A program made the position numbers and the translations under genes. Source: Jannaschia donghaensis (GTDB lineage: Bacteria; Pseudomonadota; Alphaproteobacteria; Rhodobacterales; Rhodobacteraceae). From it: a DNA stretch of 64,000 nt. Location: positions 505,583 to 569,582 of the forward strand of contig NZ_CXSU01000011.1 in NCBI RefSeq assembly GCF_001403795.1. The letters are read 5' to 3'. Numbering within the stretch: position 1 is the first letter of the stretch; each line of letters starts with the position of its first letter. The notes under the pieces are model-generated. The model made no database searches and was not told the DNA's origin. It saw nothing but the letters and a program-made list of their open reading frames with translations. Positions 1,747 to 57,921 of this stretch are shown piece after piece.

Positions 1747-2230
1747 CGGTTCCCGCCGCGCCGTCCTGACCGGCGTGCTGCTGGCCCTTGCCGGCTGCGG
1801 CTTCACCCCGGTCTACGGGCCGGGCGGGCGTGGCGACGCCCTGCGGGCGACCATTCGCCCCACCGAACCCGACACCGACCTGACCTTCGCCTTCGTGCGC
1901 CAGTTCGAGGAGCGGTTGGGCCGGGCCGCCGTGCCCACCTGGGATCTGGTCTATACCATCGCCACCACCGAGGAGGCGCTGGCCATCGACGGGTCCAACA
2001 ACATCACCCGCTACAACCTCGAAGGGACGATCGACTGGACCCTGGTCCCCGCCGGCGGCACGCAGATGGTGCTGTCGGGGCGCGAGACGACGTTCACCGC
2101 CTATTCGGCCACCGGCTCCACCATCTCGACGCTGGAGTCTGAACGCGACGCCGAACGCCGCCTGGCCGGTATCCTGGCCGACCGGGTGGTCACCCGCCTT
2201 CTGGGCGAGGCGTCGGGGCTGACCCGATGA
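1733..2230 (+). CDS. lptE: LPS-assembly lipoprotein LptE
   Basis: Outer-membrane lipoprotein that plugs the LptD barrel during lipopolysaccharide export. The 165-residue product has a short signal sequence ending in a lipobox, LAGC (Cys22), followed directly by [10 protein letters not shown], a hallmark of alphaproteobacterial LptE. The start codon lies inside the end of leuS (14-bp overlap) and the stop overlaps the holA start as ATGA, so the three genes are probably translated together. Low overall sequence conservation is normal for this family; the leuS-lptE-holA context makes the call firm. Confidence 0.9.
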
Positions 2231-3207: not shown

Positions 3208-3293
3208 CGGGTCGCGGGGCTGGCCTGACCGATCGAAATCGCGGAAGGTACGGGGAAATGGCTGGACACGGCCGACCGGGGACCGACTGCGAC

Positions 3294-38797: not shown

Positions 38798-38889
38798 GGG
38801 CGGAGGGTGGCTGTGAGCCTATCTTGCACATCAGTCGTGATGCAGCGAATGTTTGGTTCGCCAAAGCCGTCATAATCGAACGTGAACCA

Positions 38890-39567
38890 ATGCCAATCCT
38901 CGAAAATAATCCTAAGTTATGCGACGGTTTTTGGAGATTTGTCCGTGGGGATATGGAGGATCAAGTTTTCGAAAACTGGCTGTATTCCTCTAATGAGATT
39001 GAAGATGCCTTGGGTGAAGAAGGATATCTTGCCGCCATCTCGGTGAATTTTTATGATGCGAAGCGACTTGCGGAGTTCAAGGCTTACCTAAGCCAGCATC
39101 TTTTCAAGCCTGCCTGTTGCGACTGTCATTCACAGCCTGACGATGGGTCGGTCTCACTTGGAGAATGGCCAAGCGACAGATTTGAGATAATCGAGCGCGA
39201 AATCGATGGGATATGGTGGCTCCATCGGCTCGAATGCAAAGAATGTAAGACGATGTGGCACTTGGCGGCAGAGGAGAGAATTTTTGATGTATGGCTGTTA
39301 AAACGGTATCCAATAGCCAGCCGATCGCAAGTGCAGACATATCGCGATCTTCTGATGTCAGCCAAGGCTTCCGGATCAAAAGTCTGGTACTTTGACCCAA
39401 CTGTTTCGTGGGAGATACCGGCAGCGATCCGAGATCTTGCCGAGGAGACACCCGGTATTGCGTGCTCGGAGATCGAGCGCATCCTACCAATCGATGTCGG
39501 AATTGTTCGGCAACATGCGCGTGTCGTAGCTTCAAAGTACAAGCTGGACATAAATCTTGGAGCTTAG
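38890..39567 (+). CDS. Hypothetical protein with a Cys cluster, low-GC orphan
   Basis: A 225-residue protein from the ATG at 38890; an in-frame TTG at 38824 would add 22 residues. No family recognised with confidence. Paired cysteines (Cys76, Cys77, Cys79, then Cys116 and Cys119) could bind zinc. The N-terminal segment CDGFWRFVRGDMEDQVFENW resembles small proteins sometimes found as immunity or stand-alone proteins beside toxins, but that is a weak impression. Base composition is visibly more AT-rich than the neighbours, which suggests recent transfer. No toxin gene is beside it. Confidence 0.7.
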   Translation: MPILENNPKLCDGFWRFVRGDMEDQVFENWLYSSNEIEDALGEEGYLAAISVNFYDAKRLAEFKAYLSQHLFKPACCDCHSQPDDGSVSLGEWPSDRFEIIEREIDGIWWLHRLECKECKTMWHLAAEERIFDVWLLKRYPIASRSQVQTYRDLLMSAKASGSKVWYFDPTVSWEIPAAIRDLAEETPGIACSEIERILPIDVGIVRQHARVVASKYKLDINLGA

Positions 39568-39820: not shown

Positions 39821-41221
39821 TCAGAGCGCCAGTATAGGTCTTGGATGAGTCGAATGGTCACTGATGGGAAGGCTCATCGAAACGCTGAACGCGGCCGCCG
39901 ATGTGCTCGATGTAGTTGTCCCGCCAAAGGCTTCCGATACGGCGTTCACGATTGAGAGGCCCAAGCCAGATCCTTGTGATGGCTCGACTTGGCCGAAGCG
40001 TGCCATTGCTGTGTCGATGTCAGACTGTGAGATACCCTTTCCGTCGTCGGAAACCGTAACCTTGAGCCTGTTGTACCCATGGGAGGCTGTGAGCGCGATT
40101 TCTGTCAGGCCTCCGCCTCCGTGGGCGAGTGCGTTGTTAAGAAGGTTCAGGACAGCCTGCTCGAACATGAGCGCGTCTCCGGTCAAATTGGGTAGTGTCG
40201 GCGGTATTTCTACATCGAAGACGATCCCTTTCGCGTCAGATTGCTTTTGGAACCCGGCTGCTATCCCTAGCAATACGGCCCTCGGATCGAACGTTCCAAA
40301 GCTTGCACCGCGGTGGCCGGCGCGGGCACGTTCCAGCGCGAGCAGACTGTCGGCCAAGGCCGCCGACCGACGCGCCGCTTCGACGAGATCGGCGCTCCGC
40401 GCGCGCATGTCGGCCGGAGTTTTGGCTGTCTCCACCGCTTCAGCAAGGCTCAGGACACCAGCGATTGGATTGCGCAACTGATGCGTCGCGTCAGAAATAA
40501 ACCGATCCTTGGCATCCAAGGTCAGACGGAGTTGTTCGAGCAGCGCATTCAACCGCGCGACGATCCCGGCAACTTCCTGCGGGATCTTGCGCTTGATTGG
40601 CGAGAGATCATCTGGCGATCTTTGTTCGATGGCATTCTCCAGATCATCGAGCGGCAGAAGGCCCAGGCGAACGCCGAACCAGACAATCACTGCCAACGCG
40701 CTGAGCAGGAGCGCGATGATTGCAAACGTAGGACGTGTCCGGCCATCAACGAAGCCATCCAGCAGGGAGGTGTTTTGCCACACGGTGAAGGTGAAGGGAC
40801 CAGTCAATTGGTCGATGGACATAAGTTGCCGGAAGCGGAGGGCCCGGACAGGTTCACCACGGTAGATTGCTTCGTAATACGTCTGTTCCGGTACGTCCCC
40901 GCCCGCAGTGCCCGGAACAACGGGGGGCGTCGCGTAACCGGTCACGAAGACGCCGTCGGGCGCGTAGACATGGTAGAAGACTGCACCACCCGAGGTATCG
41001 CGCAGCAGGTCGCGGGTCGCTTCGCTTAGCGCGTCGCCCCCGGTCACGGCAGTATCGCGCGAAATGGACAGCGCCGTCGACAGGAGCGAGCGATCAAACC
41101 GGTCGATCGCGCGTGCCTGAGCATCAGCATAGGCCCAAATCCCGACGAGCGCTGCGATGACCAGAAGGGGTGCGAGGATGACGGCCGTGAGCCGCGCGCG
41201 CAGGGACAGGACCCTGTTCAT
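39821..41221 (-). CDS. TctE-type sensor histidine kinase
   Basis: A 466-residue membrane kinase. Two membrane helices (about 10-30 and 165-187) flank a periplasmic sensor region of about 130 residues, followed by a HAMP-like linker, the H-box DATHQLRNPIAGV, N-box LNLLNNALAHGG and G-boxes DDGKGI and GSGLGLSIV. TctE kinases sense tricarboxylates and control tctCBA. It overlaps the response regulator gene (ATGA) and is next to a TctC/TctA transporter, making a sensing-uptake module. Confidence 0.88.
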   Translation of the reverse strand: MNRVLSLRARLTAVILAPLLVIAALVGIWAYADAQARAIDRFDRSLLSTALSISRDTAVTGGDALSEATRDLLRDTSGGAVFYHVYAPDGVFVTGYATPPVVPGTAGGDVPEQTYYEAIYRGEPVRALRFRQLMSIDQLTGPFTFTVWQNTSLLDGFVDGRTRPTFAIIALLLSALAVIVWFGVRLGLLPLDDLENAIEQRSPDDLSPIKRKIPQEVAGIVARLNALLEQLRLTLDAKDRFISDATHQLRNPIAGVLSLAEAVETAKTPADMRARSADLVEAARRSAALADSLLALERARAGHRGASFGTFDPRAVLLGIAAGFQKQSDAKGIVFDVEIPPTLPNLTGDALMFEQAVLNLLNNALAHGGGGLTEIALTASHGYNRLKVTVSDDGKGISQSDIDTAMARFGQVEPSQGSGLGLSIVNAVSEAFGGTTTSSTSAAAFSVSMSLPISDHSTHPRPILAL

Positions 41222-41886
41222 TCGGTCGCCTGCATCATGTACCCAAGTCCGCGGCTCACGATGATGGAGACGCCGAAAGGAGCCAGACGTTTGCGCAACC
41301 GCGAGACGTAGACTTCGACGACCGGTTCATCGACATCCGCGCCCGTGCCGTAAAGGCTGTCGAGAAGGACCTGCTTTGATACCAGGCGACCGCTGGCTTG
41401 AAGCAACCGCTCGAACACCGCGATCTCGCGGCGCGGAATTGCAAGGGGGCCACCGGGCGCAGTTATCATCCTAGCGCCGATATCGAAGACCAGCGATCCG
41501 ATCCGCGTCTGGACTTTGGGTGTATCGGTCACGCGCCGCGACAGGGCTCTGATCCGGGCGGCGAATTCCTGCATCTCGAAAGGTTTGCTCAGGTAGTCGT
41601 CCGCTCCGGCATCCAAACCGCGGACCTTATCGTTGGTTTCCGCTCGGGCGGTCAAAAGCAGCACAGGCCGCATGTCGCCCCGCGCCCGCATCCCGCGAAG
41701 AATCTCCAGCCCGTCCTTGCCGGGAAGGTTGATGTCTAGAACAATCAGATCGGAGTCGTCGCTGCGCAGATAGGCGTCCGCCTCATCGCCATCCTGGATC
41801 AGGTCGATCGCGTGGCCCGCGTCCTGAAGGTTGTAGGCGATTCCCTTGGCCACCGACAGGTTGTCTTCGATCACGACCACACGCAT
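41218..41886 (-). CDS. TctD-type response regulator
   Basis: A 222-residue OmpR-class regulator: phospho-acceptor Asp51 in VLDINLPGKDG, KPFEMQEF switch region, winged-helix C-terminus with VEVYVSRLRKRL and RGLGYMM. The ATG at 41886 begins MRVVVIEDN, the usual start; longer in-frame starts add unrelated sequence. Divergent from the binding-protein gene across 153 bp, the likely target promoter. Confidence 0.9.
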   Translation of the reverse strand: MRVVVIEDNLSVAKGIAYNLQDAGHAIDLIQDGDEADAYLRSDDSDLIVLDINLPGKDGLEILRGMRARGDMRPVLLLTARAETNDKVRGLDAGADDYLSKPFEMQEFAARIRALSRRVTDTPKVQTRIGSLVFDIGARMITAPGGPLAIPRREIAVFERLLQASGRLVSKQVLLDSLYGTGADVDEPVVEVYVSRLRKRLAPFGVSIIVSRGLGYMMQATE

Positions 41887-42004
41887 GGAAAACCCTTTCC
41901 GCAAGAAACCAAGCAATAATCCGCCCGATGAAAGGTTCATGCAAGTATCGCGCCGCATGATCGGACCACCAAGGCAGCTGGGGAGGCTGTCTGATTATCT
42001 ACGG

Positions 42005-42020
42005 CCGACGCGACCGTCGG
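42005..42020. promoter_or_regulatory. Short perfect dyad before the binding-protein gene
   Basis: CCGACG-CGAC-CGTCGG, a perfect 6+4+6 inverted repeat, ends 19 bp before the ATG at 42040 and just ahead of its gggagg ribosome site. It may be an operator or a leader hairpin affecting translation. No repeat of it was seen elsewhere nearby. Confidence 0.35.
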
Positions 42021-42039
42021 ACTTTGGGAGGAAGACCTT

Positions 42040-43143
42040 ATGATTTCGAAAACCAAGCGCCTTATGGCGTCTGTTGCCGTGCTGTCGGCTGCGATGACCG
42101 GGGCACCTGCATTGGCCGATGGCCATGCCATCGACCTCGAAGGCAAGACCGTGGAGTGGATCATTCCATTCTCGGAGACGGGTGGGTCTGCCAAATGGGC
42201 CAATTTCTACGCCCCCCTGCTGTCCGAAGCGCTGCCGGGGAATCCGACGGTCGTCGTGACTTTCATGCCCGGTGCAGGTTCGACCAAAGGTGCGAACTTC
42301 TTTCAGGATGTGGAATACGACGATGGCACGACGATCTTTGGCTCGTCCGGGTCCACGCAGTTTCCATACCTGCTGAGCGATCCACGCGTGCGTTACGAAT
42401 ATGGCGACTGGAATGTGGTTCTGGCGTCGGGCACCGGTGGCGTAGCCTATCTGCCGGCTGATCTGGCGGGTCAATTGGGCGAGGGCGGTGACGCGACCGC
42501 GCTGGCCGGAGAAGACTTCATCTATGGCAGCCAGGGGGCCACCCGCCTCGACCTCGTGCCGCTTCTGGCATGGGAAATGCTGGGCCTTCAGGTCGAGCCG
42601 GTCTTTGGCATCGAAGGGCGCGGCGACGGTCGCCTGATGTTCGAGCGCGGCGAAGCCAACATCGACTACCAGACTTCGTCGTCCTATCTGTCGGGCGTGA
42701 CGCCCCTGGTCGAAGCGGGCACTGCGGTGCCGTGGTTCGCGTTCGGCGCGCTGGATGACGCGGGCAACATAGTGCGTGACCCGACGTTCCCCGATATGCC
42801 CAGTTTCAAGGAAGTCTGCGATGTCACCGATGGCTGCGAAACCTCGGGCAAGCAATGGGATGCCTGGAAGGCTTTCTTCGTCGCCGGTTTCCCCGCCCAG
42901 AAGATGGTATTCCTGCCCGCCGGAGCGCCGGACGCAGCCATCGCGACCTACACGCAAGCCTTCGAGGACGTGAAGGCCCGTGCCGATTTTGCCGAGATCA
43001 GCACCGCGCGCCTTGGCGTTTATCCGCAACTGACGGGTGCGGCGGCGCAGACCGCGCTGGACAGCGCAACAGTCGTGCCGGAAGCCTCCAAGGCCTACGT
43101 CACCGGCTGGCTCAAGGATCGCTACGGCGTCGTCCTGGAGTGA
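42040..43143 (+). CDS. TctC-like tripartite tricarboxylate transporter binding protein
   Basis: A 367-residue periplasmic solute receptor of the Bug/TctC type. A signal peptide (about 1-26, ending APALA) precedes GKTVEWIIPFSETGGSAKWANF and MPGAGSTKGANFF, corresponding to the two ligand-contacting loops of the family. The protein is somewhat longer than typical Bug proteins (about 325) and the motifs are diverged. It is followed by a hairpin and then the TctA-TctB fusion, so it supplies ligand to that permease. Confidence 0.85.
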   Translation: MISKTKRLMASVAVLSAAMTGAPALADGHAIDLEGKTVEWIIPFSETGGSAKWANFYAPLLSEALPGNPTVVVTFMPGAGSTKGANFFQDVEYDDGTTIFGSSGSTQFPYLLSDPRVRYEYGDWNVVLASGTGGVAYLPADLAGQLGEGGDATALAGEDFIYGSQGATRLDLVPLLAWEMLGLQVEPVFGIEGRGDGRLMFERGEANIDYQTSSSYLSGVTPLVEAGTAVPWFAFGALDDAGNIVRDPTFPDMPSFKEVCDVTDGCETSGKQWDAWKAFFVAGFPAQKMVFLPAGAPDAAIATYTQAFEDVKARADFAEISTARLGVYPQLTGAAAQTALDSATVVPEASKAYVTGWLKDRYGVVLE

Positions 43144-43152
43144 TCTAGCCTT

Positions 43153-43190
43153 GTCTTCCCCGTACGTCGGCGGCGGGGAAGACCCTTCTT
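43153..43190 (+). terminator. Intra-operon hairpin between binding protein and permease genes
   Basis: A perfect 10-bp stem GTCTTCCCCG / CGGGGAAGAC with an 11-nt loop is followed by CCTTCTT. It lies 10 bp after the binding-protein stop. Such partial terminators or mRNA-stabilising hairpins typically raise receptor levels relative to the permease. Confidence 0.7.
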
Positions 43191-43220
43191 GCCAACCAAT
43201 TTTATATTGAGGTTGCTGCG

Positions 43221-45248
43221 ATGGACGTCATTGCGATGGCGCTTCCGGCGTTGAACGACGCCTTCGCCATGATCCTCCAGCCGCATGTCGTCGGCTATCT
43301 GGTCCTCGGCGTGGTCATGGGCCTGTGCATCGGGGTCTTCCCCGGTTTGGGCGGCATTGCCGGACTTTCGCTGCTGCTTCCATTCATGTTCGGGATGGAG
43401 CCTGTCTCGGGCCTCGCCCTGATGATCGGCATGGTCGCTGTCGTGCCCACGTCCGACACCTTCGCCTCCGTTCTCATGGGCATCCCCGGATCATCGGCGT
43501 CGCAAGCTACCGTCCTCGATGGATTCCCCATGGCCAAGAAAGGTCAGGCGGCCCGTGCCCTGTCAGCCGCCTTTGCGTCCTCTCTGTTCGGAGGCCTGTT
43601 CGGTGCGGCCTTCCTGACAGTCTTCATCCTGGCCGCGCGCCCCATTGTTCTCTTGTTCCAGACGCCGGAACTTTTGATGATCACGATCTTCGGGCTGTCG
43701 ATGGTCGGCATCCTCGCCGGTCGGGTCGCGATCAAGGGCATTGTCGCCGCGTGCGTCGGCATCTTGGTGGGCACCATCGGGGAAGGGGCCAGCTCGGGCG
43801 CGCTGCGCATGTCGACCTACAACCTGCCGTATCTGGTGGACGGGCTGAAATTGGTGATCGTCGGTTTGGGCGTCTTCGCTATCCCCGAAATCATCGCGCT
43901 CTTGCGGCAGGACAAGGCCATTTCCGACCGCGCCAACTTGGGCGGCGGCTGGCTGGTGGGGGTCAAGGACTGGTGGGCGAACCGCTGGCTCTCGATGCGC
44001 TGCTCGCTGATCGGCGTCATCGTCGGTGTGATCCCCGGCCTCGGCGGGTCGGTCGTCGACTGGATCGCCTATGGCCATACCGTGCAGACCGCCAAAGACA
44101 AGACGCAGTTCGGGTCGGGTGACGTGCGCGGTGTTATCGGGCCGGAGTCGTCGAACAACGCCAAGGAAGGCGGAGGCCTGGTGCCAACACTTCTCTTCGG
44201 CATTCCTGGCTCGGGCTCGATGGCGATCTTCATCTCTGCGGTGGCTCTTCTCGGGACCGGCTCGATCGAAGTCGGCCCGTCCATGCTCAAGAATAATCTC
44301 GACTTCACCTACGCCATCGTCTGGCTCCTGGCGTCGGCGAATGTCGTGGGAACGTTGATCTGCATCGCCGCGTCTGGCGGCATCGCGCGGCTGACGAACA
44401 TTCGCTTCGCGCTGCTCGCGCCGTTCTTGTTCATGATCATCGCCTTCGCGGCTTTCCAGTCACGCCAAGAGATCTGGGATCTGGTTGCGCTCTTCGGGAT
44501 CGGCCTTCTGGGCATTTTCATGCGGCGGTTCGATTGGTCCCGCCCCGCGTTCCTGATCGGGTTCGTGCTGTCCGCTCCGGCCGAACGTTACACCAATCAG
44601 GCGTATCAGATCGGCGCGTCCCGCTTCCGTCGTGGGTTCGAGGAGGGGTTGGAGTATGTCTTCAGCCCCATCGTCATCATCCTGATCGTCATCACCCTGA
44701 TTTCTGTCGTAGTCGGCCTGCGCCAAGCCAAAACGATCCAGGCCGAAGGCGACGTCGCGTCGGGCTCCAAACGCGCGCCGCTCGTGTTTCTGCTGATCTT
44801 GTCCGCCTACGTCGGCCTCACCTACTGGAACGCGGCGATCATCCCGGACTTTGCGCGCATGGACCGGGTGTTTCCCGTGTTCGTCGCCACCATCGCCCTT
44901 ATTGGATGTGCGCTTCTGCTGGTGCAGATGATGCGCAGCCCCGAAACCAGTGCCATCTTCGCCGACCGTGAAGCGCAGGAAGCATCGTCGAACACCCACG
45001 CCCTCTGGCCGACGCTCGCCTGGTTCGCGGCCCTGCTGATCGCGTCGGCATTGGTCGGTTTCATCTTCGCGCTCGCGGTATTTCTATTGCTGTTCATCCG
45101 CATTCGCGCAGGGAAAAGCTGGGCTTACGCGGCGACATATGCGGCAGGGGGCATCACTTTCATCTGTGCGATGGCCTGGACATTGAACCGGGATTTCCCG
45201 CCGGGCCTGCTTCAGAACTATGTTGATCTTCCGTGGCCGCTCACATGA
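43221..45248 (+). CDS. TctA-TctB fusion permease of a tripartite tricarboxylate transporter
   Basis: A 675-residue polytopic protein. Residues about 1-500 are TctA, with the duplicated glycine motifs FPGLGGIAGLSLLLP and IPGLGGSVVDWIAYG plus ESSNNAKEGGGLVPTLLFG. Residues about 515-675 form a four-helix TctB domain (VFPVFVATIALIG ... LVGFIFALAVFLLLFI). TctA and TctB are normally separate genes, so this is a fusion. The stop overlaps the prpF-like gene (ATGA). Confidence 0.9.
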   Translation: MDVIAMALPALNDAFAMILQPHVVGYLVLGVVMGLCIGVFPGLGGIAGLSLLLPFMFGMEPVSGLALMIGMVAVVPTSDTFASVLMGIPGSSASQATVLDGFPMAKKGQAARALSAAFASSLFGGLFGAAFLTVFILAARPIVLLFQTPELLMITIFGLSMVGILAGRVAIKGIVAACVGILVGTIGEGASSGALRMSTYNLPYLVDGLKLVIVGLGVFAIPEIIALLRQDKAISDRANLGGGWLVGVKDWWANRWLSMRCSLIGVIVGVIPGLGGSVVDWIAYGHTVQTAKDKTQFGSGDVRGVIGPESSNNAKEGGGLVPTLLFGIPGSGSMAIFISAVALLGTGSIEVGPSMLKNNLDFTYAIVWLLASANVVGTLICIAASGGIARLTNIRFALLAPFLFMIIAFAAFQSRQEIWDLVALFGIGLLGIFMRRFDWSRPAFLIGFVLSAPAERYTNQAYQIGASRFRRGFEEGLEYVFSPIVIILIVITLISVVVGLRQAKTIQAEGDVASGSKRAPLVFLLILSAYVGLTYWNAAIIPDFARMDRVFPVFVATIALIGCALLLVQMMRSPETSAIFADREAQEASSNTHALWPTLAWFAALLIASALVGFIFALAVFLLLFIRIRAGKSWAYAATYAAGGITFICAMAWTLNRDFPPGLLQNYVDLPWPLT

Positions 45249-46336
45249 CCCAGACAGCCATTCCTTTCCTGTTCCTGCGCGGCGGCTCCTCGCGCGGGCC
45301 CTACATGAACCGCGCTGATCTGCCCGCAGATCGTGAAACGCTTGCACGTGTCCTGATTGCAATGGTCGGGTCGGGTCATCCGCTCAACATTGATGGCATC
45401 GGTGGCGGTAATGCGGTCACGACCAAGGTTGCGATGCTGTCGCGGTCAGACGACGATTGGGCCGATATCGACTACTTCTTTGCGCAGGTGAGCGTGGAGG
45501 ATCGTACGGTGGATTTCAAACCGACCTGCGGCAATATTCTGTCGGGTGTCGGACCTGCGGCCCTGGAGATGGACCTGATCGACGCGACCGAAGGGGAAAC
45601 CACGGTGAGGATCCGCGCCGTCAATACCGGCGCGCGCGTCGTCGCAACAGTGCAGACCTCGTCCGATGGCGTGATCTACGACGGTGAGGCAATGATCGAT
45701 GGCGTTCCGGGGACGGCGGCACCCGTTGCGTTGCAATTCATGGATACGGTTGGCGGCGCGACCGGGGCATTCCTGCCGACGGGCAATCTGGTCGACACAT
45801 TTAACGACATCGATGTGACCTGCATGGACGTCGCCATGCCGATGGTCATCGCGCGCGCCGACGCATTCGGTCTGACGGGATATGAAAGCGTCGCGGAGCT
45901 GAATGAGAACCGTGCCTTCTTTGCCAACATGGAGGCCGTTCGAATAATGGCGGGCGAAGCGATGGGGGGTGCGGACGTCGCGGGGTCGGTCACGCCCAAA
46001 TTCGGTTTGATCGCTCCGGCGCGCAATGGTGGAACGGTCGCAGCGCGATACTTCATGCCATGGACAGCCCATCCGACGATGGCGGTGACCGGTGCGCAAT
46101 GCCTCGCGTCCTGCGTGTTGACGCCGGGGACGGTGGCCGACGGGTTGGCGATACGGTCGAACGACCGGCCCGCTAAGATTGCTCTGGAACATCCTGTCGG
46201 CACGATTGACGTGCTGGTGGATTACGATCTGACCGCGGATGGCATCGACCTGCGCTCGGCCGGGCTGGTCCGGACGGCCCGCCTGCTGGCGCGTGGCGAG
46301 GTGATGATTCCACGCGATATCTGGAGCGGCACATGA
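45245..46336 (+). CDS. PrpF/GalD-family isomerase (4-oxalomesaconate tautomerase-like)
   Basis: A 363-residue PrpF-fold protein. N-terminal FLFLRGGSSRGPYM, the CGNI loop with catalytic-type Cys (PTCGNILSGVGPAA) and GAFLPTGN are family hallmarks. Members are 2-methylaconitate isomerase, 4-oxalomesaconate tautomerase or aconitate isomerase. The tricarboxylate transporter and TcuA-like gene nearby suggest an aconitate-like substrate here, but the sequence cannot decide. It overlaps both flanking genes (ATGA), so it is in a tight operon. Confidence 0.85.
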   Translation: MTQTAIPFLFLRGGSSRGPYMNRADLPADRETLARVLIAMVGSGHPLNIDGIGGGNAVTTKVAMLSRSDDDWADIDYFFAQVSVEDRTVDFKPTCGNILSGVGPAALEMDLIDATEGETTVRIRAVNTGARVVATVQTSSDGVIYDGEAMIDGVPGTAAPVALQFMDTVGGATGAFLPTGNLVDTFNDIDVTCMDVAMPMVIARADAFGLTGYESVAELNENRAFFANMEAVRIMAGEAMGGADVAGSVTPKFGLIAPARNGGTVAARYFMPWTAHPTMAVTGAQCLASCVLTPGTVADGLAIRSNDRPAKIALEHPVGTIDVLVDYDLTADGIDLRSAGLVRTARLLARGEVMIPRDIWSGT

Positions 46337-47301
46337 AGGTCCACATCCTTGACGATTGGTTCGACACGCTGCGCGGCCTGCCGTGCTTCGCCAAGCTGGC
46401 GGATCACGATGTCACCGTCTGGACGGATCACGAACCGGATCCGGAGCGCCTCGCGGCGCGGATCGCGCAGGCAGATGCGCTGGTGCTCTTCCGCGAGCGC
46501 ACGAAAATCGGCGCGAACCTGCTGTCGCGCGTGCCGAAGTTGCGGCTCATCAGCCAGCGCAGCGTCTATCCCCATGTCGACGTCGACGCCTGCACTGCGA
46601 ATGGCGTGTTGCTGTCGTCTAACATGCACAGCGACACGCCGTCCTATGCGGCCGCCGAGATGACGCTGGCGCTTATCCTTGCCAGCTATCGCCAGATCCC
46701 ACAGCAGGTCGCCTCGATCCGCGCGGGCGATTGGCAGATGGGCGTCGGGCGCACGCTGCGTGGTCGGACGCTGGGGCTTTACGGGTACGGGCGGATTGCA
46801 CAGGCCGTCGCGGGCTACGCCGAGGCGATTGGAATGCACGTGCAGTGGTGGGCCTCCGACGAAGGGCGGGCGCGGGCCCTCGCCGACGGTCGGAACATCG
46901 CGGCCAGTCGAGAGGCGTTCTTCGCGACCAGCGACGTGGTAAGCCTGCACGTCCGTCTGAAACCCGACACGCGCGGCATCATCACAGCCGCTGACCTGGC
47001 TGCAATGGCCCCGCGCAGCTTGCTGGTGAACACATCGCGGTCGGGTCTGATTGCAGCCGGTATGCTGGAGGCGGAGATCGCGCGTGGCCGTCTCCACGCC
47101 GCCGTTGACGTCTTCGACAATGAACCACTGCGCGATGCCGACAATCTGCTGCTGACACACCCGAATGTGACTCCAACGCCGCATATTGGCTATGTCACCG
47201 AGGACGAGTTCGATCTGCAATTTTCTGACATCTTCGATCAGGTCAACGCCTTCGCAGACGGCAGGGCAATCAACATGATCAACCCTGAGGTCTTGGGCTG
47301 A
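46333..47301 (+). CDS. D-2-hydroxyacid dehydrogenase (D-isomer-specific)
   Basis: A 322-residue NAD-dependent oxidoreductase. The NAD motif is GLYGYGRIAQAVAGYA, followed by the catalytic-type segments SLHVRLKPDTRGII, LLVNTSRSGLI, DVFDNEPL and the general-acid His in PHIGYVTEDEF. It interconverts a 2-hydroxy and a 2-oxo acid. Placement between the PrpF-like gene and the AbrB-type gene makes it part of the acid-catabolic unit. Its 3' end overlaps the convergent AbrB-type gene by 23 bp. Confidence 0.9.
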   Translation: MKVHILDDWFDTLRGLPCFAKLADHDVTVWTDHEPDPERLAARIAQADALVLFRERTKIGANLLSRVPKLRLISQRSVYPHVDVDACTANGVLLSSNMHSDTPSYAAAEMTLALILASYRQIPQQVASIRAGDWQMGVGRTLRGRTLGLYGYGRIAQAVAGYAEAIGMHVQWWASDEGRARALADGRNIAASREAFFATSDVVSLHVRLKPDTRGIITAADLAAMAPRSLLVNTSRSGLIAAGMLEAEIARGRLHAAVDVFDNEPLRDADNLLLTHPNVTPTPHIGYVTEDEFDLQFSDIFDQVNAFADGRAINMINPEVLG

Positions 47302-48307
47302 AAAGCCGCGCGGCAAGCGGTGCGCCCAAAATCACCACGACGATCCGCAAAACGTGATGGGCAATGACGAAGGCCATGTCCGCCCCCGCAATCAACGCCA
47401 GAACCGTCATTTCCGCCTGACCGCCGGGCGCGAAGGCCAACAGCGTTTCCATCGGCGGTGCGAGGTTGAGGAGGTGAATGGCCTCAACGAAGAGGCCGGA
47501 CAGGATCAGCAGGATCACGCAGAACCCCAAGGCGGCGGTCACGACACGGCGCACCTCTGGCCCGGTAACGCCCGCGTATTTCGTCCCGACGGTCATGCCG
47601 ATGAAGAACTGCGCCATCCAGATTGCTTCCGCAGGGGGGCGGAATTGCAAGGTACCGGTGAGCGCGAGAACCGCAGACAGGATCATCGGCCCGAGGATGG
47701 AGGCACCAAACAGGCCGATTGCCTTGGCCACCCGCCAGCCGACGACGCCGCAAACCAGCATCAGCATCAGTTGACCAAGGGGCAGGTCTGCGACGGGCAG
47801 ACCAGGTGGGTTGCTCAGGTCGACGCCCCAGTAGCCATTGAGGATGAAGGGAAGGGCGACAACGACGACCATCACGCGCGTCGCGTGGATCAATGACAGC
47901 GCGCGCACGTCGCCGCCCGCTTCTTCGCCAAAAAGGAGCATGTCCTGCAAACCGCCCGGCATCGCCCCGTAGTAGCTGGTGGCAAAGTCAAAACCGCAAA
48001 GCCGCTGGAAATAGGGCACGCCGACCAAGCCGATGGCGGCGACCATGAGCGGGACAAGGATTAACGTCGTCCACATCTGCGCCATCGCCGCGACGAGTGC
48101 CCAGGTAAACGTTGCGCCGACAGCCACCCCGAGGATGGTGCGCATCAGGTTGTTGACGACGGGCATTCCCCGCATCGGCATGCCTAGAAGGGCCGCGATC
48201 AGGCAAGCAATGATTGGACCGAGAAGCCAGGGTAGGGGCAGTGACAGAAGGTAGAAGGCGCCAACGCCAAGGGCCGCGACCAGATGGGCCGACAGGACCG
48301 ACTTCAC
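47279..48307 (-). CDS. AbrB-family (duplicated-domain) membrane protein, second copy
   Basis: A 342-residue polytopic protein, paralogue of 10465-11484: both share LLGP-x-x-ACLIAAL, [31 protein letters not shown] and IAHHVLRI-type endings. The family is often seen beside TctABC-like and acid-catabolic genes, suggesting carboxylate transport, though this is not demonstrated. It overlaps gntR (ATGA) and so is under the same promoter as the regulator. Confidence 0.83.
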   Translation of the reverse strand: MKSVLSAHLVAALGVGAFYLLSLPLPWLLGPIIACLIAALLGMPMRGMPVVNNLMRTILGVAVGATFTWALVAAMAQMWTTLILVPLMVAAIGLVGVPYFQRLCGFDFATSYYGAMPGGLQDMLLFGEEAGGDVRALSLIHATRVMVVVVALPFILNGYWGVDLSNPPGLPVADLPLGQLMLMLVCGVVGWRVAKAIGLFGASILGPMILSAVLALTGTLQFRPPAEAIWMAQFFIGMTVGTKYAGVTGPEVRRVVTAALGFCVILLILSGLFVEAIHLLNLAPPMETLLAFAPGGQAEMTVLALIAGADMAFVIAHHVLRIVVVILGAPLAARLFSPRPQG

Positions 48308-48948
48308 GATCGCATCAAGGACAGGCGATGCCGCAGGGAGGTTTGAAGATGGGCTTCGGCAGTGGCACCGGCGGCATCAATATCAGCCTGAGAGATCGCC
48401 TCGATGATTAGGCCATGCTGCCCGACGACCGTTGTGATCCGTGCCTCGTCGGCCAAAGTGGTAGGGCCGAGCAGCAGAAGCGCGTTGTTGAGCGCGCGGG
48501 CAGATTCCAGCAAGAACCGATTGCGCGCCGCGAGGTAGATGGACCGGTGGAACCGCTGGTTGATGGCGGCGGCACGGGAAGGGGCATTCGTGGCCGCCGC
48601 AATCTCGTCGTTGATCGCAAAGAGTGCGTCAACTTCGGCGGCGCTGGCGTGCTTGGCCGCCATCTCCGCCGCCGTCCGTTCGAGGACCAAGCGCATTTCG
48701 TAAAGTTCGACCACTTCAGTCTGGCCCAGCGTGCGAATGACGGCCCCAATGCGGGGGCGATGCTCCACGATCCGTTCGGCCTCCAATCGACGCAAGGCTT
48801 CGCGCACCGGCGTCCGCGACAGCGATAGACGTTCCGCAATGTCGGTTTCGCGCAAGCGGTCGCCAGGCCGAAACTCGCCCGCCTCGATCGCGGACATCAG
48901 CTTGGCAAAGGCGATGCCACCTTGAGAAAGTTCCTGATCGTCCGACAA
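48304..48948 (-). CDS. GntR-family (FCD subgroup) transcriptional regulator
   Basis: A 214-residue regulator from a TTG at 48948. N-terminal winged helix RLRETDIAERLSLSRTPVREA and a C-terminal all-helical FCD ligand domain with His residues in RFHRSIYLA, GQHGLI and AEAHLQTS that usually bind metal and a carboxylate effector. The TTG has aaaagg nine bases upstream. The in-frame ATG at 48999 would place the palindromic operator inside the coding sequence, which argues against it. Probably senses an acid intermediate and controls itself, the AbrB-type gene and the flavoprotein. Confidence 0.85.
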   Translation of the reverse strand: MSDDQELSQGGIAFAKLMSAIEAGEFRPGDRLRETDIAERLSLSRTPVREALRRLEAERIVEHRPRIGAVIRTLGQTEVVELYEMRLVLERTAAEMAAKHASAAEVDALFAINDEIAAATNAPSRAAAINQRFHRSIYLAARNRFLLESARALNNALLLLGPTTLADEARITTVVGQHGLIIEAISQADIDAAGATAEAHLQTSLRHRLSLMRS

Positions 48949-48967
48949 GTATAGACACCTTTTCAAA

Positions 48968-48987
48968 TTGTATCCACTCGGATACAA
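48968..48987. promoter_or_regulatory. GntR operator palindrome
   Basis: Perfect inverted repeat TTGTATCC-ACTC-GGATACAA in the 63-bp gap between gntR and the tcuA-like gene. A further half site TTGTATC lies at 48991-48997, right before the ribosome site of the tcuA-like gene. FCD-type GntR proteins bind palindromes of this size, so both divergent promoters are probably repressed from here. Confidence 0.8.
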
Positions 48988-49011
48988 AATTTGTATCAAG
49001 GAGAATTGCCA

Positions 49012-50475
49012 ATGTCAAAGCACGTCATCATCGTCGGATCGGGAAACGCGGCCATGTGCGCGGGCATCGCCGCACTGGAAGCCGGGGCCAGCGTTTTGAT
49101 GCTTGAGAAGGCAGGTGAGGGTCTTGCAGGCGGCAACACCAAATACACGGCGGGCGCGATGCGCTTTGCCTATGACGGGGCGGAGGACCTGCTCCCGCTT
49201 CTCAAAGATCCGGAAGATCCCAGATTGGTGGCAACCGATTTTGGGGGCTATCCACAGGCGAAATTCTGCGATGATCTGCTGGGCTTCAACGGCGGGCGAC
49301 CGCTGTCGGTGGAGCAAAAGCGACTGATCAGCGAAAGCCTGTTCGCGATGCACTGGTTGGGCGGACACGGGATCAAGTTCGAGCCAATCTATAGCCGGCA
49401 GAGCTTCGAGAAGGACGGCCGGCACGTTTTCTGGGGCGGCCTGACGCTGGCCGCGGAAAACGAGGGCGTGGGGCTGTTCGATATGGAACTGGCTGCATTT
49501 GCCCGCCTGGGCGGCGAAATCCGGTATGACAGCGCGGTTACAGATCTTTTGACTGATGGGGAGGCGGTCGTCGGCGTCCGTGTCGGGTCCGAAGAGGTGC
49601 GTGCCGATGCGGTGATCCTGGCCTGCGGCGGGTTCGAGGCGAGCGCGCGCCTGCGCGCCGAGTTGATGGGCGGCGACTGGGAGAAGGCGAAGGTACGCGG
49701 CACGCCGCACAATACCGGCGACGGCCTGACATTGGCACATGGGCTGGGTGCACAGAAGTACGGTCTCTACCCCGGATGCCACGCGACGCCGATGGACCTG
49801 CACATGGCGGATTACGGCGGGCTGGACTTGCCACCGGGGGAACGTAAAAACTACCGCAAGATCTGTTACTTCCTGGGTGTGATGCTGAACGCTGACGGCA
49901 ACCGCTTCGTCGACGAGGGCGAGAATTTCCGTAACTACACCTACGCGCAGTTCGGGAAGGCCGTTCTGGAACAGCCAGGGCATTTCGCGTGGCAGGTCTT
50001 CGATGCAAAGGTCGATGACCTGCTTTATGCAGAATACCGTTTTCATGACGCGCATTTCGTCGAGGCTGACACGTTGGAAGACCTCTGCGCCAGGATGGAA
50101 GGCGTCGACCCGAAAGGAGCGGCGGCGACGCTGGCGGCCTACAATGACGCGGTCATGGCCGATGTGCCGTTCGACCCGACCATTTTGGACGGGAAGGGGA
50201 CCAGGGGGTTGGCCTTGGCGAAATCAAACTGGGCGCAGAAGATCGATACGGGGCCATTCAAGGCCTTCCCTGTGACTGGTGGCATCACATTCACCTATGG
50301 TGGGTTGAAGGTGTCGGACACGGGCGCGGTCCTGCACGAGGATGGCCATGTGATCCCAGGTCTCTTCACTTGCGGCGAGATGGTGGGCGGGGTCTTCTTC
50401 GAAGGCTATCCCGGCGGATCGGGCCTCACCTCGGGGGCAGTGTTCGGGCGCTTGGCCGGGCGGGGGGCCGCCTGA
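49012..50475 (+). CDS. FAD-dependent dehydrogenase, TcuA (tricarballylate dehydrogenase)-like
   Basis: A 487-residue flavoprotein of the fumarate reductase/succinate dehydrogenase group. N-terminal FAD motif VIIVGSGNAAMCAGIAALE, then GGNTKYTAGAMRF, ACGGFEAS, RGTPHNTGDGL, and C-terminal GGITFTYGGLKV and YPGGSGLTSGAVFGRLA. The GNAA and GGNTK variants match TcuA, which oxidises tricarballylate to cis-aconitate. A TcuB-like electron-transfer partner is not in the window. The ATG at 49012 has aaggag; the GntR operator lies upstream. Confidence 0.85.
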   Translation: MSKHVIIVGSGNAAMCAGIAALEAGASVLMLEKAGEGLAGGNTKYTAGAMRFAYDGAEDLLPLLKDPEDPRLVATDFGGYPQAKFCDDLLGFNGGRPLSVEQKRLISESLFAMHWLGGHGIKFEPIYSRQSFEKDGRHVFWGGLTLAAENEGVGLFDMELAAFARLGGEIRYDSAVTDLLTDGEAVVGVRVGSEEVRADAVILACGGFEASARLRAELMGGDWEKAKVRGTPHNTGDGLTLAHGLGAQKYGLYPGCHATPMDLHMADYGGLDLPPGERKNYRKICYFLGVMLNADGNRFVDEGENFRNYTYAQFGKAVLEQPGHFAWQVFDAKVDDLLYAEYRFHDAHFVEADTLEDLCARMEGVDPKGAAATLAAYNDAVMADVPFDPTILDGKGTRGLALAKSNWAQKIDTGPFKAFPVTGGITFTYGGLKVSDTGAVLHEDGHVIPGLFTCGEMVGGVFFEGYPGGSGLTSGAVFGRLAGRGAA

Positions 50476-50481
50476 CTTCCC

Positions 50482-51534
50482 TCAAAGGGCTTTGCCGTCT
50501 GCTCCGAAGAAATGCAGGTTCGCGTTCTCGAAGGTCAGGCCGATTGTCTGGCCCTCGATGTCGTCCATTGCGCCGGAACTGCGGACCGTCAGCAGGCCAA
50601 GCGGGCCGCAATCGACGTAGTGGAAGAAATCAGCGCCAAGGTATTCGCTGACCTGCACCACGCCGTCGCAATGTCCCGTACCGGGCGCGCCAATGTCGAT
50701 GTGCTCGGGGCGAATGCCCAATTGCACCGCGCCTGACCGCCCGTCCGAGCCAAGCGCGCCGCCGTTGCCACCGTCCAATACGAACTGGCCGTCCGATGTG
50801 GTGCAAGGCATCAAGTTCATTTTTGGGCTGCCAATGAATTGGGCGACGAAGACCGTATCGGGCCGTTCATATAACTCGCGTGGTGTCCCGACCTGTTGGA
50901 TCAAACCGTCCTTCAGGACGACAATCCGGTCGGCCAGCGTCATCGCCTCGACCTGATCGTGCGTGACGTAGACCATTGTGGTGGCGAGTGTTTTGTGCAG
51001 GCGTGCGATCTCGAAGCGCATATCGACGCGCAGACTGGCGTCCAGGTTCGACAGCGGTTCGTCGAAAAGGAAGCCCTTCGGCTTGCGCACGATGGCCCGG
51101 CCAATGGCGACGCGCTGCCGCTGACCGCCCGACAGATCCTTGGGGCGACGGTCCATGTAGGCGTCGAGCTTGAGGATGTCTGCGGCATGGCCGACTTTCT
51201 CGGCGATCTCGGCCTTGGATGCACCTGCGGTCTTGAGGGCGAATCCCATGTTATCTTCGACGGACAAGTGCGGGTAGAGCGCGTAGGATTGGAACACCAT
51301 CGACAGTTCCCGCTCGGACGGAACTTTGTGGGTGACGTCGGCACCATCCAGCAGGATCTGGCCGCGCGACGTCTCCTCCAACCCCGCGATCATCCGCAGC
51401 AGCGTCGATTTTCCGCAGCCGGACGGACCGACGAAGATGATGAGTTCGCCGTCGCGGATGTCGAGGTCGATGCCCTTGATGACCTGAACGGCCCCGAACC
51501 ATTTCTCGACGGAATTGAGCGTGATGGATCCCAT
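50482..51534 (-). CDS. Sugar ABC transporter ATP-binding protein (MalK/UgpC type)
   Basis: A 350-residue ATPase. Walker A GPSGCGKST, signature LSGGQRQRVAIGRAI, Walker B FLFDEPLSNLD, and a C-terminal regulatory TOBE/MalK domain (LGIRPEHIDIG). It energises the two permeases encoded upstream. The ATG at 51534 matches the family start MGSITLNSVEKWFG. It is the last gene of the LacI-headed operon and converges with the tcuA-like gene, 6 bp apart. Confidence 0.93.
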   Translation of the reverse strand: MGSITLNSVEKWFGAVQVIKGIDLDIRDGELIIFVGPSGCGKSTLLRMIAGLEETSRGQILLDGADVTHKVPSERELSMVFQSYALYPHLSVEDNMGFALKTAGASKAEIAEKVGHAADILKLDAYMDRRPKDLSGGQRQRVAIGRAIVRKPKGFLFDEPLSNLDASLRVDMRFEIARLHKTLATTMVYVTHDQVEAMTLADRIVVLKDGLIQQVGTPRELYERPDTVFVAQFIGSPKMNLMPCTTSDGQFVLDGGNGGALGSDGRSGAVQLGIRPEHIDIGAPGTGHCDGVVQVSEYLGADFFHYVDCGPLGLLTVRSSGAMDDIEGQTIGLTFENANLHFFGADGKAL

Positions 51535-51545
51535 GATGTATTCCT

Positions 51546-52811
51546 TCAGACGGCTTGGCGCGCGCGAGGGTCGGCGTTCCACGACAGCCATACGGCCGCG
51601 GTCCAGGAGAAGTTCGCACCGATGCAGCCGGCACCCGTGAGTGGATTGAAGCATTCCCAGAAGCCCGAGGCTTCGATGGCGCGGATCAACCCGTCGCGCA
51701 GTTGGGCCGCCAGATCAGGTTCGCCCTGTTCGTCGAGACCAAGCGCGGTCATGTAGTTCATCTGCGGCCAGACGGGCCCGCACCAATACCGCTGCGGCTC
51801 GAACGCCGGGTCGTCTGGGTCCCAACTGGGCAGCATATGCGCGACCTTGCCGGCAATCCGGCGCAGGTTCGCTACAGTGCGGGCGCGTTGGTCGGGGGTG
51901 CCGGCGTCGGCATAGAAGCAAAGCGCGCTGGAATTGTTGAACCCCGCCGTCAACGCACCCGAACGGATGTCGCGGGCGCAGAAGGCACCGAGGTCATCGT
52001 TCCAGAACGTGTCGGTCGCGGCCAGGCCGGTGTCGATCCAGCCTTGGACTTCCATGCATGTCTCGGCATCTTTGCCCAAGCTTTGCGCCATTGCCAGCAA
52101 GTCGCGATTGGCACGCAGCAGGACGAAGTGAATGGTCGGGTCGGCCATCAGGAACGGCCCCTCGTCGGTCAGCCGCCGCTGGTCCCAACCGATCCGTTCG
52201 CCGAACTGCACGATGGTGAGATACTTGTCATACTGATCCTGCGTCGGTCGATAGGTCGCGTCGACGTGCTTGTTGTCCATGCGCGTGTAGGGCGCGAGGT
52301 CGGGTGCCGACTCCATCGCCGCAAGGCCGATGTTCCAGTCGGGCGAGTTGTCGCGCCCGGTTTCCCAAGGATGAACCGTGCAGACCACACCATCGACGCT
52401 GCGCGCATCGTGCCACCATCGGTGCCAGCGCAGCAACGCGTCGAAGACGGCGGCGCGACGGTCGGGCGCGTCAGGGGTGAGGTGGCGCACCACGGTTGCC
52501 AAGACGGGCGGCTGCGACACGCCAGTCGACGGGATCGGGCCAGGTGTCACGCCCCAGCGAGAGGGTCCGGGGAAGTAATCCGGGTCGTCGCTGCGGAAGA
52601 TAATGCTGGGCACCATGCCGTCGGGCCATTGCCCCTCTAGCAGCGACGTCACTTCGGCCCAAGCGCGGTCCGTATCATAGGTCGCGATGCCGAGCGCCAC
52701 GAAGGCGCTGTCCCAGTTCCATTGGTGCGGATAAAGGCCTGACGTGGGAATGGTGAAGCCGCCCCGATCGTTGGCGAGGAGGGTGTCGATCGCTTTCTGG
52801 CGAAGTGACAT
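51546..52811 (-). CDS. GH63/MGH1-like glycoside hydrolase
   Basis: A 421-residue (alpha/alpha)6-barrel glycosidase. Motifs TSGLYPHQWNWDSAFVALG, EGQWPDGMVPSI, HPWETGRDNSPDWN, NNSSALCFYAD and YWCGPVWPQMNYM match the bacterial MGH-type clade that includes mannosylglycerate and glucosylglycerate hydrolases. No signal peptide, so it acts in the cytoplasm on an imported substrate. It sits between the permease and ATPase genes in a tight operon. Substrate assignment to glycosyl-glycerates is inference from family. Confidence 0.85.
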   Translation of the reverse strand: MSLRQKAIDTLLANDRGGFTIPTSGLYPHQWNWDSAFVALGIATYDTDRAWAEVTSLLEGQWPDGMVPSIIFRSDDPDYFPGPSRWGVTPGPIPSTGVSQPPVLATVVRHLTPDAPDRRAAVFDALLRWHRWWHDARSVDGVVCTVHPWETGRDNSPDWNIGLAAMESAPDLAPYTRMDNKHVDATYRPTQDQYDKYLTIVQFGERIGWDQRRLTDEGPFLMADPTIHFVLLRANRDLLAMAQSLGKDAETCMEVQGWIDTGLAATDTFWNDDLGAFCARDIRSGALTAGFNNSSALCFYADAGTPDQRARTVANLRRIAGKVAHMLPSWDPDDPAFEPQRYWCGPVWPQMNYMTALGLDEQGEPDLAAQLRDGLIRAIEASGFWECFNPLTGAGCIGANFSWTAAVWLSWNADPRARQAV

Positions 52812-52815
52812 TTGA

Positions 52816-54048
52816 TTAACCTTTCACGCTTCCGGCCGTGAGCCCCGCGACGAGGAAGCGTTCGAACCAGAGGAACAGGGCCAGGACGGGCACGGTCGCG
52901 ATCACGGCCCCTGCCATGAGGTGCTGACGCGGGACTTCGGAGGAGTTCAGCTCTGCGATGCCGCGCGACAGGGTGTAGAGGTCGACGTTGTCGAGGAACA
53001 TGAAGGCGAACAGAAACTCGTTCCACGCGATCATGAAGACATAGAGCGCGACGGAGGCCAAGGCGGGCAGGGCGAGGGGGAGCGTGATCTTGATTATTAC
53101 CTTGAGGCGAGACAGACCATCCATCAGCCCCGCTTCCTCCAGCTCCGACGGGATGCCGCGGAAGTAGCCTTGCAGCATGTAGAGCGCGACCGGGATCGTC
53201 GTCGCCGGATAGACCAGCATCAGCCCCCAGAGGGTATTGCGCATCCCAAGCTGAGAGAAGATCGCGTAGAGCGGGATCACCAGAACGATCATCGGCACCA
53301 TGTAGATCAACAGGATCGAGCGGCTGAGGAAGTTCTGGCCCGGAAACCTGAGGCGCGCGACCGCATAGGCTCCAGGGACGGCGAAGAACAGGGTGATGGC
53401 GACGGTCGCGACAGACACGAGCGCCGAATTCAGCAGGTAGGTGCCGAAGTGGTACTGGGTAAAGAGCTCGATATAGCTGCGGAAAAGAGCACTCGCGCCT
53501 TGACCGAAGTCGATGGAGAAATCGAGCGGATTGGAGAGCAGCAACTGTTGGTTCTTGAGGCTCATCATCACCATGACGAAGAACGGCAGGGCGACGGCGA
53601 TGGTGAAGGCCAGCAAGCCGAAGCCCTTGACGAACCGAAGGCAGATCACTTCGACGTTATAGCGCCGCTCGCGCATGGGGCCAAAACCGCGGGCAGTCAG
53701 TTGGATCGCCTGCACAGCCGCCAAGGCGGCAAGCACCGTGAATGTGACCTGTCCAATAGGGTAGACAGACAGCGGCAAGCCCAGCGGCGTCGTGCCTGAT
53801 GCGAGGGTGAGGACGAGCAGGAAGACAAAGGTGGCAAGCGCGCGCACGCCAAGCGTCCGCCGCGCAGGTGACACGCCCGTAAGGACGCCCGCCGCAATCA
53901 GGCCCGCCAGCGCGCCGGCCGTGACCTGCGGCTGAAACGGTTCGCCGGAAACGAAGAGGGCGAGCAGCGTGAGCAGGGTCGTAAGGACCGCGCCCCACAG
54001 CGTGCCGAAGAGCAAACATAGCCAGAAGATGTTTCCGAAGCGGCTCAT
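52816..54048 (-). CDS. Sugar ABC transporter permease (MalG type) with N-terminal extension
   Basis: A 410-residue inner-membrane permease; MalG-type proteins are usually about 280. Residues about 1-125 add roughly four extra hydrophobic segments. The core follows, with the EAA loop region ELEEAGLMDGLSRLKVIIKITLPLALP (read in two parts) that docks the ATPase. It overlaps the MalF-type gene (ATGA). The extension is not part of the standard fold and its role is unknown. Confidence 0.88.
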   Translation of the reverse strand: MSRFGNIFWLCLLFGTLWGAVLTTLLTLLALFVSGEPFQPQVTAGALAGLIAAGVLTGVSPARRTLGVRALATFVFLLVLTLASGTTPLGLPLSVYPIGQVTFTVLAALAAVQAIQLTARGFGPMRERRYNVEVICLRFVKGFGLLAFTIAVALPFFVMVMMSLKNQQLLLSNPLDFSIDFGQGASALFRSYIELFTQYHFGTYLLNSALVSVATVAITLFFAVPGAYAVARLRFPGQNFLSRSILLIYMVPMIVLVIPLYAIFSQLGMRNTLWGLMLVYPATTIPVALYMLQGYFRGIPSELEEAGLMDGLSRLKVIIKITLPLALPALASVALYVFMIAWNEFLFAFMFLDNVDLYTLSRGIAELNSSEVPRQHLMAGAVIATVPVLALFLWFERFLVAGLTAGSVKG

Positions 54049-55337: not shown

Positions 55338-55393
55338 GATCGCTTCCGCGTCGGAGGAGGACGGCGCGTCTGTGCGCGCCGCCCATGACACGA

Positions 55394-57807: not shown

Positions 57808-57832
57808 CGAATCCCCCTGATGAAAAGACTTA

Positions 57833-57848
57833 CCGAAACCGGTTTCGG
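57833..57848. promoter_or_regulatory. LacI-type operator palindrome
   Basis: Perfect 16-bp palindrome CCGAAACCGGTTTCGG immediately upstream of the lacI start. The CG centre and GAAACCGGTTTC core are typical for LacI-family sites. No second perfect copy was noticed within the operon. Confidence 0.85.
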
Positions 57849-57921
57849 ACAGCAAGAAATTTTCGTACTGTCTAAGCTCAGGACCCATTGATTTGGTTGC
57901 GGCTTCCGCGGTTGCCTGATT

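Follow-up and report, generated by a model that had tools for sequence, protein, structure and literature searches.

A stretch of 64,000 nucleotides from the genome of Jannaschia donghaensis (Rhodobacteraceae; contig NZ_CXSU01000011.1; 3.48 Mb in 13 contigs), which was analysed as a whole and is called the window here, carries a compact group of genes that we describe as a candidate catabolic island for tricarboxylic acids (Table 1). The original prediction had proposed that this group combines sensing, uptake, isomerization, oxidation or reduction and GntR-type control, and the genes are indeed all in place: every open reading frame (ORF) was confirmed and most of the domains are backed by Pfam and NCBIfam. 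The plus-strand run consists of TctC, the TctA-TctB fusion, a PrpF-family isomerase and a D-2-hydroxyacid dehydrogenase (HADH), with overlapping ends among the last three. The AbrB-family and GntR genes lie on the minus strand downstream of HADH, and the gene for a TcuA-like flavoprotein is divergent from the GntR gene. Conservation of this gene set across many genera (80 isomerase loci) places the grouping far beyond chance.

Table 1. Features of the candidate tricarboxylic acid island and the basis of their assignment (window positions)
Feature	Position	Strand	Basis
TctE-type sensor histidine kinase	39821..41221	-	2CSK_N, HisKA, HATPase_c (Pfam)
TctD-type OmpR response regulator	41218..41958	-	Response_reg and Trans_reg_C (Pfam)
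TctC-type periplasmic binding protein, divergent	42040..43143	+	hhalign 98.7% to four annotated TctC
TctA-TctB fusion permease	43221..45248	+	TctA 367 bits; TctB end 21.2 bits (cut-off 29.1)
PrpF-family allylic isomerase, proposed aconitate Delta-isomerase	45233..46336	+	PF04303 312 bits; Lys65, Cys99
D-2-hydroxyacid dehydrogenase (HADH)	46333..47301	+	PF02826/PF00389
AbrB-family membrane protein	47279..48307	-	PF05145 277 bits; hydrophobic by eye
GntR/FCD regulator	48304..48999	-	PF00392 and PF07729
Predicted operator TTGTATCCACTCGGATACAA, probable GntR site	48968..48987		inverted repeat in sequence
TcuA-like FAD dehydrogenase	49012..50475	+	NF006130 535 bits

Alternation of the TcuA-like protein and TcuAB

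The isomerase is mostly accompanied in related genomes by one of two oxidases, either the TcuA-like flavoprotein seen in the window or the classical pair of TcuA and TcuB (TcuAB). We sampled the family with one genome from each genus (295 in all), chosen independently of the island, and found an isomerase ortholog (at least 56% identity) in 75, a close TcuA-like protein (at least 71%) in 12 and TcuB in 73. Of the 75 isomerase genomes 58 have TcuB, as against 15 of the 220 without the isomerase (Fisher p 7e-32), and within the 75 the close TcuA-like form and TcuB exclude each other, with the former only in 12, the latter only in 58, both in none and neither in five (Fisher p 2e-10); these values, like the one for the HADH tie treated below, ignore the relatedness of the genomes. 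All 12 genomes with the close TcuA-like form carry the isomerase, which is no more than 15 kb away on one contig in 11 of them and on a different, small contig in the last, and TcuB lies within 15 kb of the isomerase in 38 of the 58 genomes that have both. One of the five genomes with neither (G241) contains a classical TcuA that is cut by the contig end (locus L146); at loci L144 and L145 no oxidase was seen.

A set of 92 loci was assembled from the best 80 of 280 in the isomerase scan and 12 selected others, and includes at least three pairs with identical isomerases (L106/L063, L110/L057 and L111/L097). Here, the TcuA-like protein is found in 51 loci, TcuAB in 17, both in none and neither in 18, with six unknown. 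The classical type is represented by locus L058, where TcuA and TcuB exceed the cut-offs of TIGR02485 (605 bits) and TIGR02484 (339 bits), respectively, in NCBIfam. On the isomerase tree, the distribution of the two types needs at least seven changes; this is a quick tree in which 37 of 101 inner branches are weak, and the true minimum may therefore be smaller. An apparent exchange within an otherwise similar setting is seen at locus L089, which has AbrB (51%) and GntR (53% identity) genes arranged as in the window and the same operator type, yet encodes classical TcuAB, and which groups with the TcuA-like loci L077 and L081 at 99% support.

The original prediction had regarded TcuB as missing, and in the whole genome of the window there is indeed no match at 1e-60 to the TcuB of L058. 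However, this is a regular state of the island, with the TcuA-like protein in place of TcuAB. Because the two types alternate, L089 included, we read the absence of TcuB as replacement, and the TcuA-like protein and TcuAB are best read as functional equivalents. The exchange in place of a two-protein by a one-protein dehydrogenase would offer a clean test of the electron exit from TcuA.

The TcuA-like protein itself scores well above the cut-off of the broader model NF006130 (369 bits) and remains below that of the stricter TcuA model TIGR02485 (232 against 372.55 bits). It shares the motifs RGTP, CHA, NWA, TFTY and GY with classical TcuA in the alignment. The listed ORF opens at a TTG at 48991, although the ATG at 49012, preceded by an AAGGAG site, fits better. 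Relatives elsewhere stand next to LeuCD and PrpF in Hydrogenophaga, aldolases in Shinella, and ABC transporters and electron transfer flavoprotein (ETF) genes in Bradyrhizobium, and these varied contexts limit what can be claimed about the substrate. For the relative in Ruegeria pomeroyi DSS-3, there is no island around the match and no listed gene under it. A search for the TcuA-like protein only, in 149 further genomes of the order, gave 15 positives at E 1e-150, two of them at 52%.

The PrpF-family isomerase

Lys65 and Cys99 of the isomerase are present in all 92 members of its clade and correspond to the catalytic pair K73 and C107 of Shewanella PrpF, the two residues whose mutation is reported in PMC5690661. 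Proteins of the PrpF superfamily are described as aconitate isomerases (PMC11495376, for Bacillus; PMC5690661), and the island enzyme resembles the aconitate isomerases TarA, TbrA and SoPrpF in belonging to the PrpF family and having the catalytic Lys and Cys.

A different assignment would place the enzyme in gallate or protocatechuate 4,5-cleavage, as a 4-oxalomesaconate tautomerase of the GalD/LigU type. It is suggested by the NCBIfam model NF033377, which is passed marginally, by 1.7 bits (441.7 bits, cut-off 440), and by the best solved relatives, which are YbhH and LigU, the closest being E. coli YbhH (6otv, 328 bits). In the tree, however, LigU, four context-labelled proteins and three other relatives form one clade with a support of 100 that excludes the isomerase clade of the window, and 30 positions are nearly fixed differently between the two clades. 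The six labelled rows of this tree comprise the four labelled by gene context, namely OMA-hydratase-like (PIG-L) and/or CHA-aldolase genes nearby, L108, which is labelled by similarity only, and LigU, labelled by its record; the position of YbhH is unsure because the tree program warned of long branches. Also, the genome of the window has no CHA aldolase above cut-off (best 21.6 against 304.5 bits), and a plasmid of Roseivivax marinus (L121) carries the island side by side with separate PIG-L (OMA-hydratase-like), CHA-aldolase and tautomerase genes. We reject the gallate/4-oxalomesaconate pathway on tree, genome content and gene context, and consider it very improbable. The Roseivivax plasmid provides a natural pair for comparison of the two isomerase clades.

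The GntR regulator and its predicted operator

A perfect inverted repeat, TTGTATCC-ACTC-GGATACAA with an N4 spacer, precedes both the ATG of the TcuA-like gene and the GntR gene, and is overlapped by a second inverted repeat, GATACAAAATTTGTATC, at 48981-48997. With up to two mismatches allowed, the first repeat has only this one occurrence in the window (0.22 expected). Sites of the type TGTAT-N4..14-ATACA were found before the oxidase in 39 of the 51 TcuA-like loci and in one of the 17 TcuAB loci (L089), compared to 0.6% of random windows. Such a site is present at each of the 34 TcuA-like loci where a GntR gene adjoins, and at 5 of the 17 where none does; both L110 and L057 are included in these counts. 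The start codon listed for GntR falls inside the operator, and the protein probably begins further downstream, at TTG 48948. GntR would be expected to control the TcuA-like gene through this operator, and probably also itself and the AbrB-family protein.

The TcuA-like gene has a divergent regulator and an operator to itself, and the window holds no further copy of this operator at the same stringency. It could also be a separate GntR-controlled unit with its own substrate, next to a system that mainly assimilates trans-aconitate by TctABC and the isomerase, in the manner of TarB and TarA. A minimal set of TctED, TctC, TctAB and isomerase, with no TcuA nearby, exists in Rhizobium rosettiformans, and the 18 of 92 loci with no oxidase nearby point in the same direction. 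Against such a division stands the strict company of the close TcuA-like form and the isomerase, in most cases within 15 kb, together with the similar tie of TcuB, and we regard it as improbable.

The D-2-hydroxyacid dehydrogenase

The catalytic triad of D-2-hydroxyacid dehydrogenases is kept nearly throughout the 78 homologs, with Arg in 77 and Glu and His in all 78; the Rossmann motif searched for was found in 73. HADH is encoded by 55 of the 75 genomes with the isomerase and by 5 of the 220 without it, and lies within 11 kb in 48 of 51 TcuA-like and 16 of 17 TcuAB loci. The original prediction had placed it outside the known tricarballylate routes. It turns out to be a core member of the island, and the route may include an undescribed step. 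In one genome (G283) some 200 kb separate the isomerase from HADH, which is accompanied by AbrB and GntR, and at locus L139 it stands with AbrB, GntR and TcuAB where the isomerase is absent. Hence, HADH is part of the system, and its closest link may be to AbrB and GntR.

An isocitrate-like hydroxyacid would be our guess for the HADH substrate, based only on isocitrate/isopropylmalate-family dehydrogenases in four loci (L085, L109, L120 and L121) and on one aconitase neighbour (L145). The gene contexts of HADH relatives were also considered and gave no conclusion: those in Pantoea and Vibrio (about 40%) stand in unrelated settings, one in Alloyangia (54%) is located by purine genes, and two stretches have no listed gene. 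In Thioclava, HADH is found with TctBAC, AbrB and MmgE/PrpD.

These observations bear on a further explanation, in which the island degrades another, unassigned tri- or hydroxy-tricarboxylate: HADH would form a 2-oxo acid, the isomerase would act on an aconitate-like homolog, and TcuA or the TcuA-like protein on a side-chain analog of tricarballylate. HADH would be superfluous to TcuAB plus aconitase, and yet it is nearly as constant as the oxidase; its persistence at the isomerase-free locus L139, the four loci with isocitrate/isopropylmalate-family dehydrogenases and the Thioclava arrangement are likewise in line with this explanation. On the other side, TcuB is tied to the isomerase as well, the characterized TcuA of Salmonella reportedly acts on tricarballylate, as the title of a reference states, and an aconitase adjoins the island in one genome. 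We consider this explanation unlikely on balance, albeit one to be taken seriously.

Sensing and uptake

The TctE-type kinase is widespread among the islands, with its ORF cluster found in 65 of the 80 isomerase loci (ORF clustering). For the regulator, the best NCBIfam model is TctD, at 199 bits and under the cut-off of 337. The pair presumably controls the transporter operon. The binding protein gives no Pfam or NCBIfam match at 1e-3, and a sequence search of solved structures showed no relative for it at E 1. A false call was considered since Pfam and NCBIfam had missed it, and this idea was dropped after a profile-profile comparison (hhalign), in which its relatives, aligned in 17 rows, match four annotated TctC proteins with 98.7% probability over 253 columns; because of this match, we accept the TctC label. 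The fusion permease contains the TctA permease of a tripartite tricarboxylate transporter, and the match of its second half, below the Pfam cut-off, falls where TctB is expected.

Proposed route and its weighing

We favour, with a confidence somewhat better than even, a catabolic island for three-acid molecules that would bring tricarballylate or trans-aconitate into the citric acid cycle via cis-aconitate. This is the route of the original prediction, and it is the one best supported by context, given the frequency of TcuB with and without the isomerase. The minimal set of Rhizobium rosettiformans also fits it. TctE and TctD would sense the external acid and activate TctC and the TctA-TctB permease for its import. 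The TcuA-like protein would by itself dehydrogenate tricarballylate to aconitate, a task that falls to TcuA and TcuB elsewhere. The PrpF-family enzyme would then shift the double bond between trans- and cis-aconitate, by an allylic proton shift involving Lys65 and Cys99, so that imported trans-aconitate could also be delivered as cis-aconitate to the housekeeping aconitase. The weakest step is that of HADH, which may oxidize a hydroxylated tricarboxylate, such as an isocitrate-like stereoisomer, to a 2-oxo acid. For the aconitase, the genome of the window has a family match in a frame of 930 aa, which is AcnA-sized. At one locus (L145, genome G191), positions 525-4390 hold a gene for an AcnA aconitase together with a canonical PrpF-type gene, directly upstream of an SBP gene and a TctC-TctAB-isomerase-AbrB-HADH set; this is the only case of an aconitase beside the island in 103 loci examined, some of them without an island.

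Several observations weigh against the route via cis-aconitate. NCBIfam names the isomerase a 4-oxalomesaconate tautomerase, and the enzyme falls far under the PrpF model TIGR02334 (162.9 against 440.55 bits), which sets it apart from the PrpF of the 2-methylcitrate cycle. The ties between genes lose weight through the relatedness that the Fisher values ignore, through the 20 of 58 genomes in which isomerase and TcuB are more than 15 kb apart or on different contigs, and through the loci with neither oxidase nearby. The exclusion holds for the close TcuA-like form only, because divergent copies (42-51%) occur in nine more genomes, four of which also have TcuB, and three of these four (G260, G125 and G091) carry the isomerase as well. 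The TcuA-like protein is only 35-37% identical to the aligned classical TcuA rows, and the gene neighbourhoods are different for its relatives at 42-51%; therefore, its substrate could differ. Finally, the conversion of tricarballylate to cis-aconitate needs no HADH, although the tie of HADH to the isomerase is about as strong as that of TcuB. Because TcuAB alone should give cis-aconitate, tricarballylate as sole substrate leaves the need for both isomerase and HADH unexplained. The tie of HADH throughout the family points to a reaction outside the known tricarballylate route.

A more specific idea, which we offer tentatively and would not rate as the expected outcome, is that the TcuA-like protein acts as a tricarboxylate dehydrogenase that needs no TcuB and hands its electrons to another acceptor, for example ETF, in view of the ETF genes next to the Bradyrhizobium relative. 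It would have been swapped with TcuAB several times in one operon and, together with HADH, would open an undescribed route for hydroxylated and saturated tricarboxylates in marine Roseobacter-type bacteria. In the open-access literature, judged mostly by titles, we found no description of this gene set in Rhodobacteraceae. The suggestion in the original prediction that the pathway may be new applies to the variant of the island and not to the kind of system. One in four of the genera sampled from the family has the isomerase (75 of 295), so that the island would represent a common, little-studied way of tricarboxylic acid turnover by marine bacteria.

Distribution and genomic setting

The 80 isomerase loci carry mostly Rhodobacteraceae-type names, and the gene order is kept in many of them; some variants are without AbrB and GntR and some have a small extra gene. 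Among 19 genomes of the same genus a close isomerase was found only in G001 (74%), where it (L110) is identical to that of Jannaschia helgolandensis DSM 14858 (L057), and more distant ones in G012 (56%) and G011 (41%). Isomerases of other genera reach up to 83% identity to that of the window among the best 80 of 280 loci. Because few genomes of the genus have the isomerase while other genera come this close, the island is an accessory and perhaps mobile unit. Plasmid records with a match number 313, of which 47 are at 60-80% identity and 32 belong to Pseudosulfitobacter. The G+C content is about 60-63% at 36000-60000 and about 64-67% over the 36 kb before that, a difference in line with acquired DNA. 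Locus L083 is titled Nocardioides marinus, an actinobacterial name, and has a Rhodobacteraceae-type island (73%); the name is probably wrong or the record contaminated.

Two further gene families were seen at related loci. One is a short ORF (about 83-108 aa, conserved, with a motif like YPTPISGCDAQFNHLL) that lies between isomerase and HADH in 10 of the 80 loci by ORF clustering (L022, L032, L050, L066, L067, L070, L084, L088, L095 and L096), and for the copy in L066 neither Pfam nor NCBIfam nor PADLOC gave a match. An SBP_bac_3-like protein of about 226 aa, with no obvious signal peptide by eye, forms a cluster in 12 of the 80 loci (L045, L052, L054, L056, L057 and others); its gene is placed between isomerase/HADH and AbrB or the TcuA-like gene, and in L023 downstream of the latter.

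On one side the island is adjoined by a plus-strand ORF of 247 aa at 38824-39567, which is without Pfam or PADLOC match. After the TcuA-like gene comes a probably separate operon of a sugar-type ABC transporter, on the minus strand at 50482-57945, with a UgpC-like ATPase (50482-51654), an MGH1-like glycoside hydrolase (PF22422, 51546-52811), a permease (52816-54048) and more large ORFs. This operon probably serves to take up and hydrolyse a solute of the glycosyl-glycerate type. Relatives of the UgpC and hydrolase genes flank the island also in L042, L077, L081, L084 and L086.

Comparison with known systems

With the TctABC/TctDE tripartite tricarboxylate transporters the island has the binding protein, TctA, a probable TctB region and the TctE/TctD pair in common, while its TctA and TctB are fused and its TctC is too divergent for Pfam. 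The tarRAB system for trans-aconitate of Bacillus velezensis, as presented in PMC11495376, likewise has a PrpF-superfamily isomerase by an importer and a regulator. There, however, the importer is the MFS protein TarB and not TctABC, and control is by the LysR-type TarR and not by a two-component system; the dehydrogenases are an addition of the island. The GalD/LigU 4-oxalomesaconate isomerases are of the same family and keep the catalytic Lys and Cys, but the island isomerase belongs to a separate clade, has other operon partners and is found in a genome without an above-cut-off downstream aldolase. For E. coli, PMC9068703 places ybhH next to the putative tricarboxylate transporter gene ybhI; the part of that source dealing with YbhH names no TcuA, HADH or Tct partners and treats its function as not established. 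Roles of TcuA and TcuB are addressed in PMC10468695. The island resembles the tcuABC system for tricarballylate use of Salmonella in its FAD dehydrogenase, probably of the TcuA family, and in cis-aconitate as the proposed product, and classical TcuAB fills the same place in sister islands. In contrast to Salmonella, the island has a TcuA-like protein of low identity to the aligned classical TcuA, below TIGR02485, in a genome without detected TcuB; it has TctABC, TctDE and GntR, and isomerase and HADH are added to the set.

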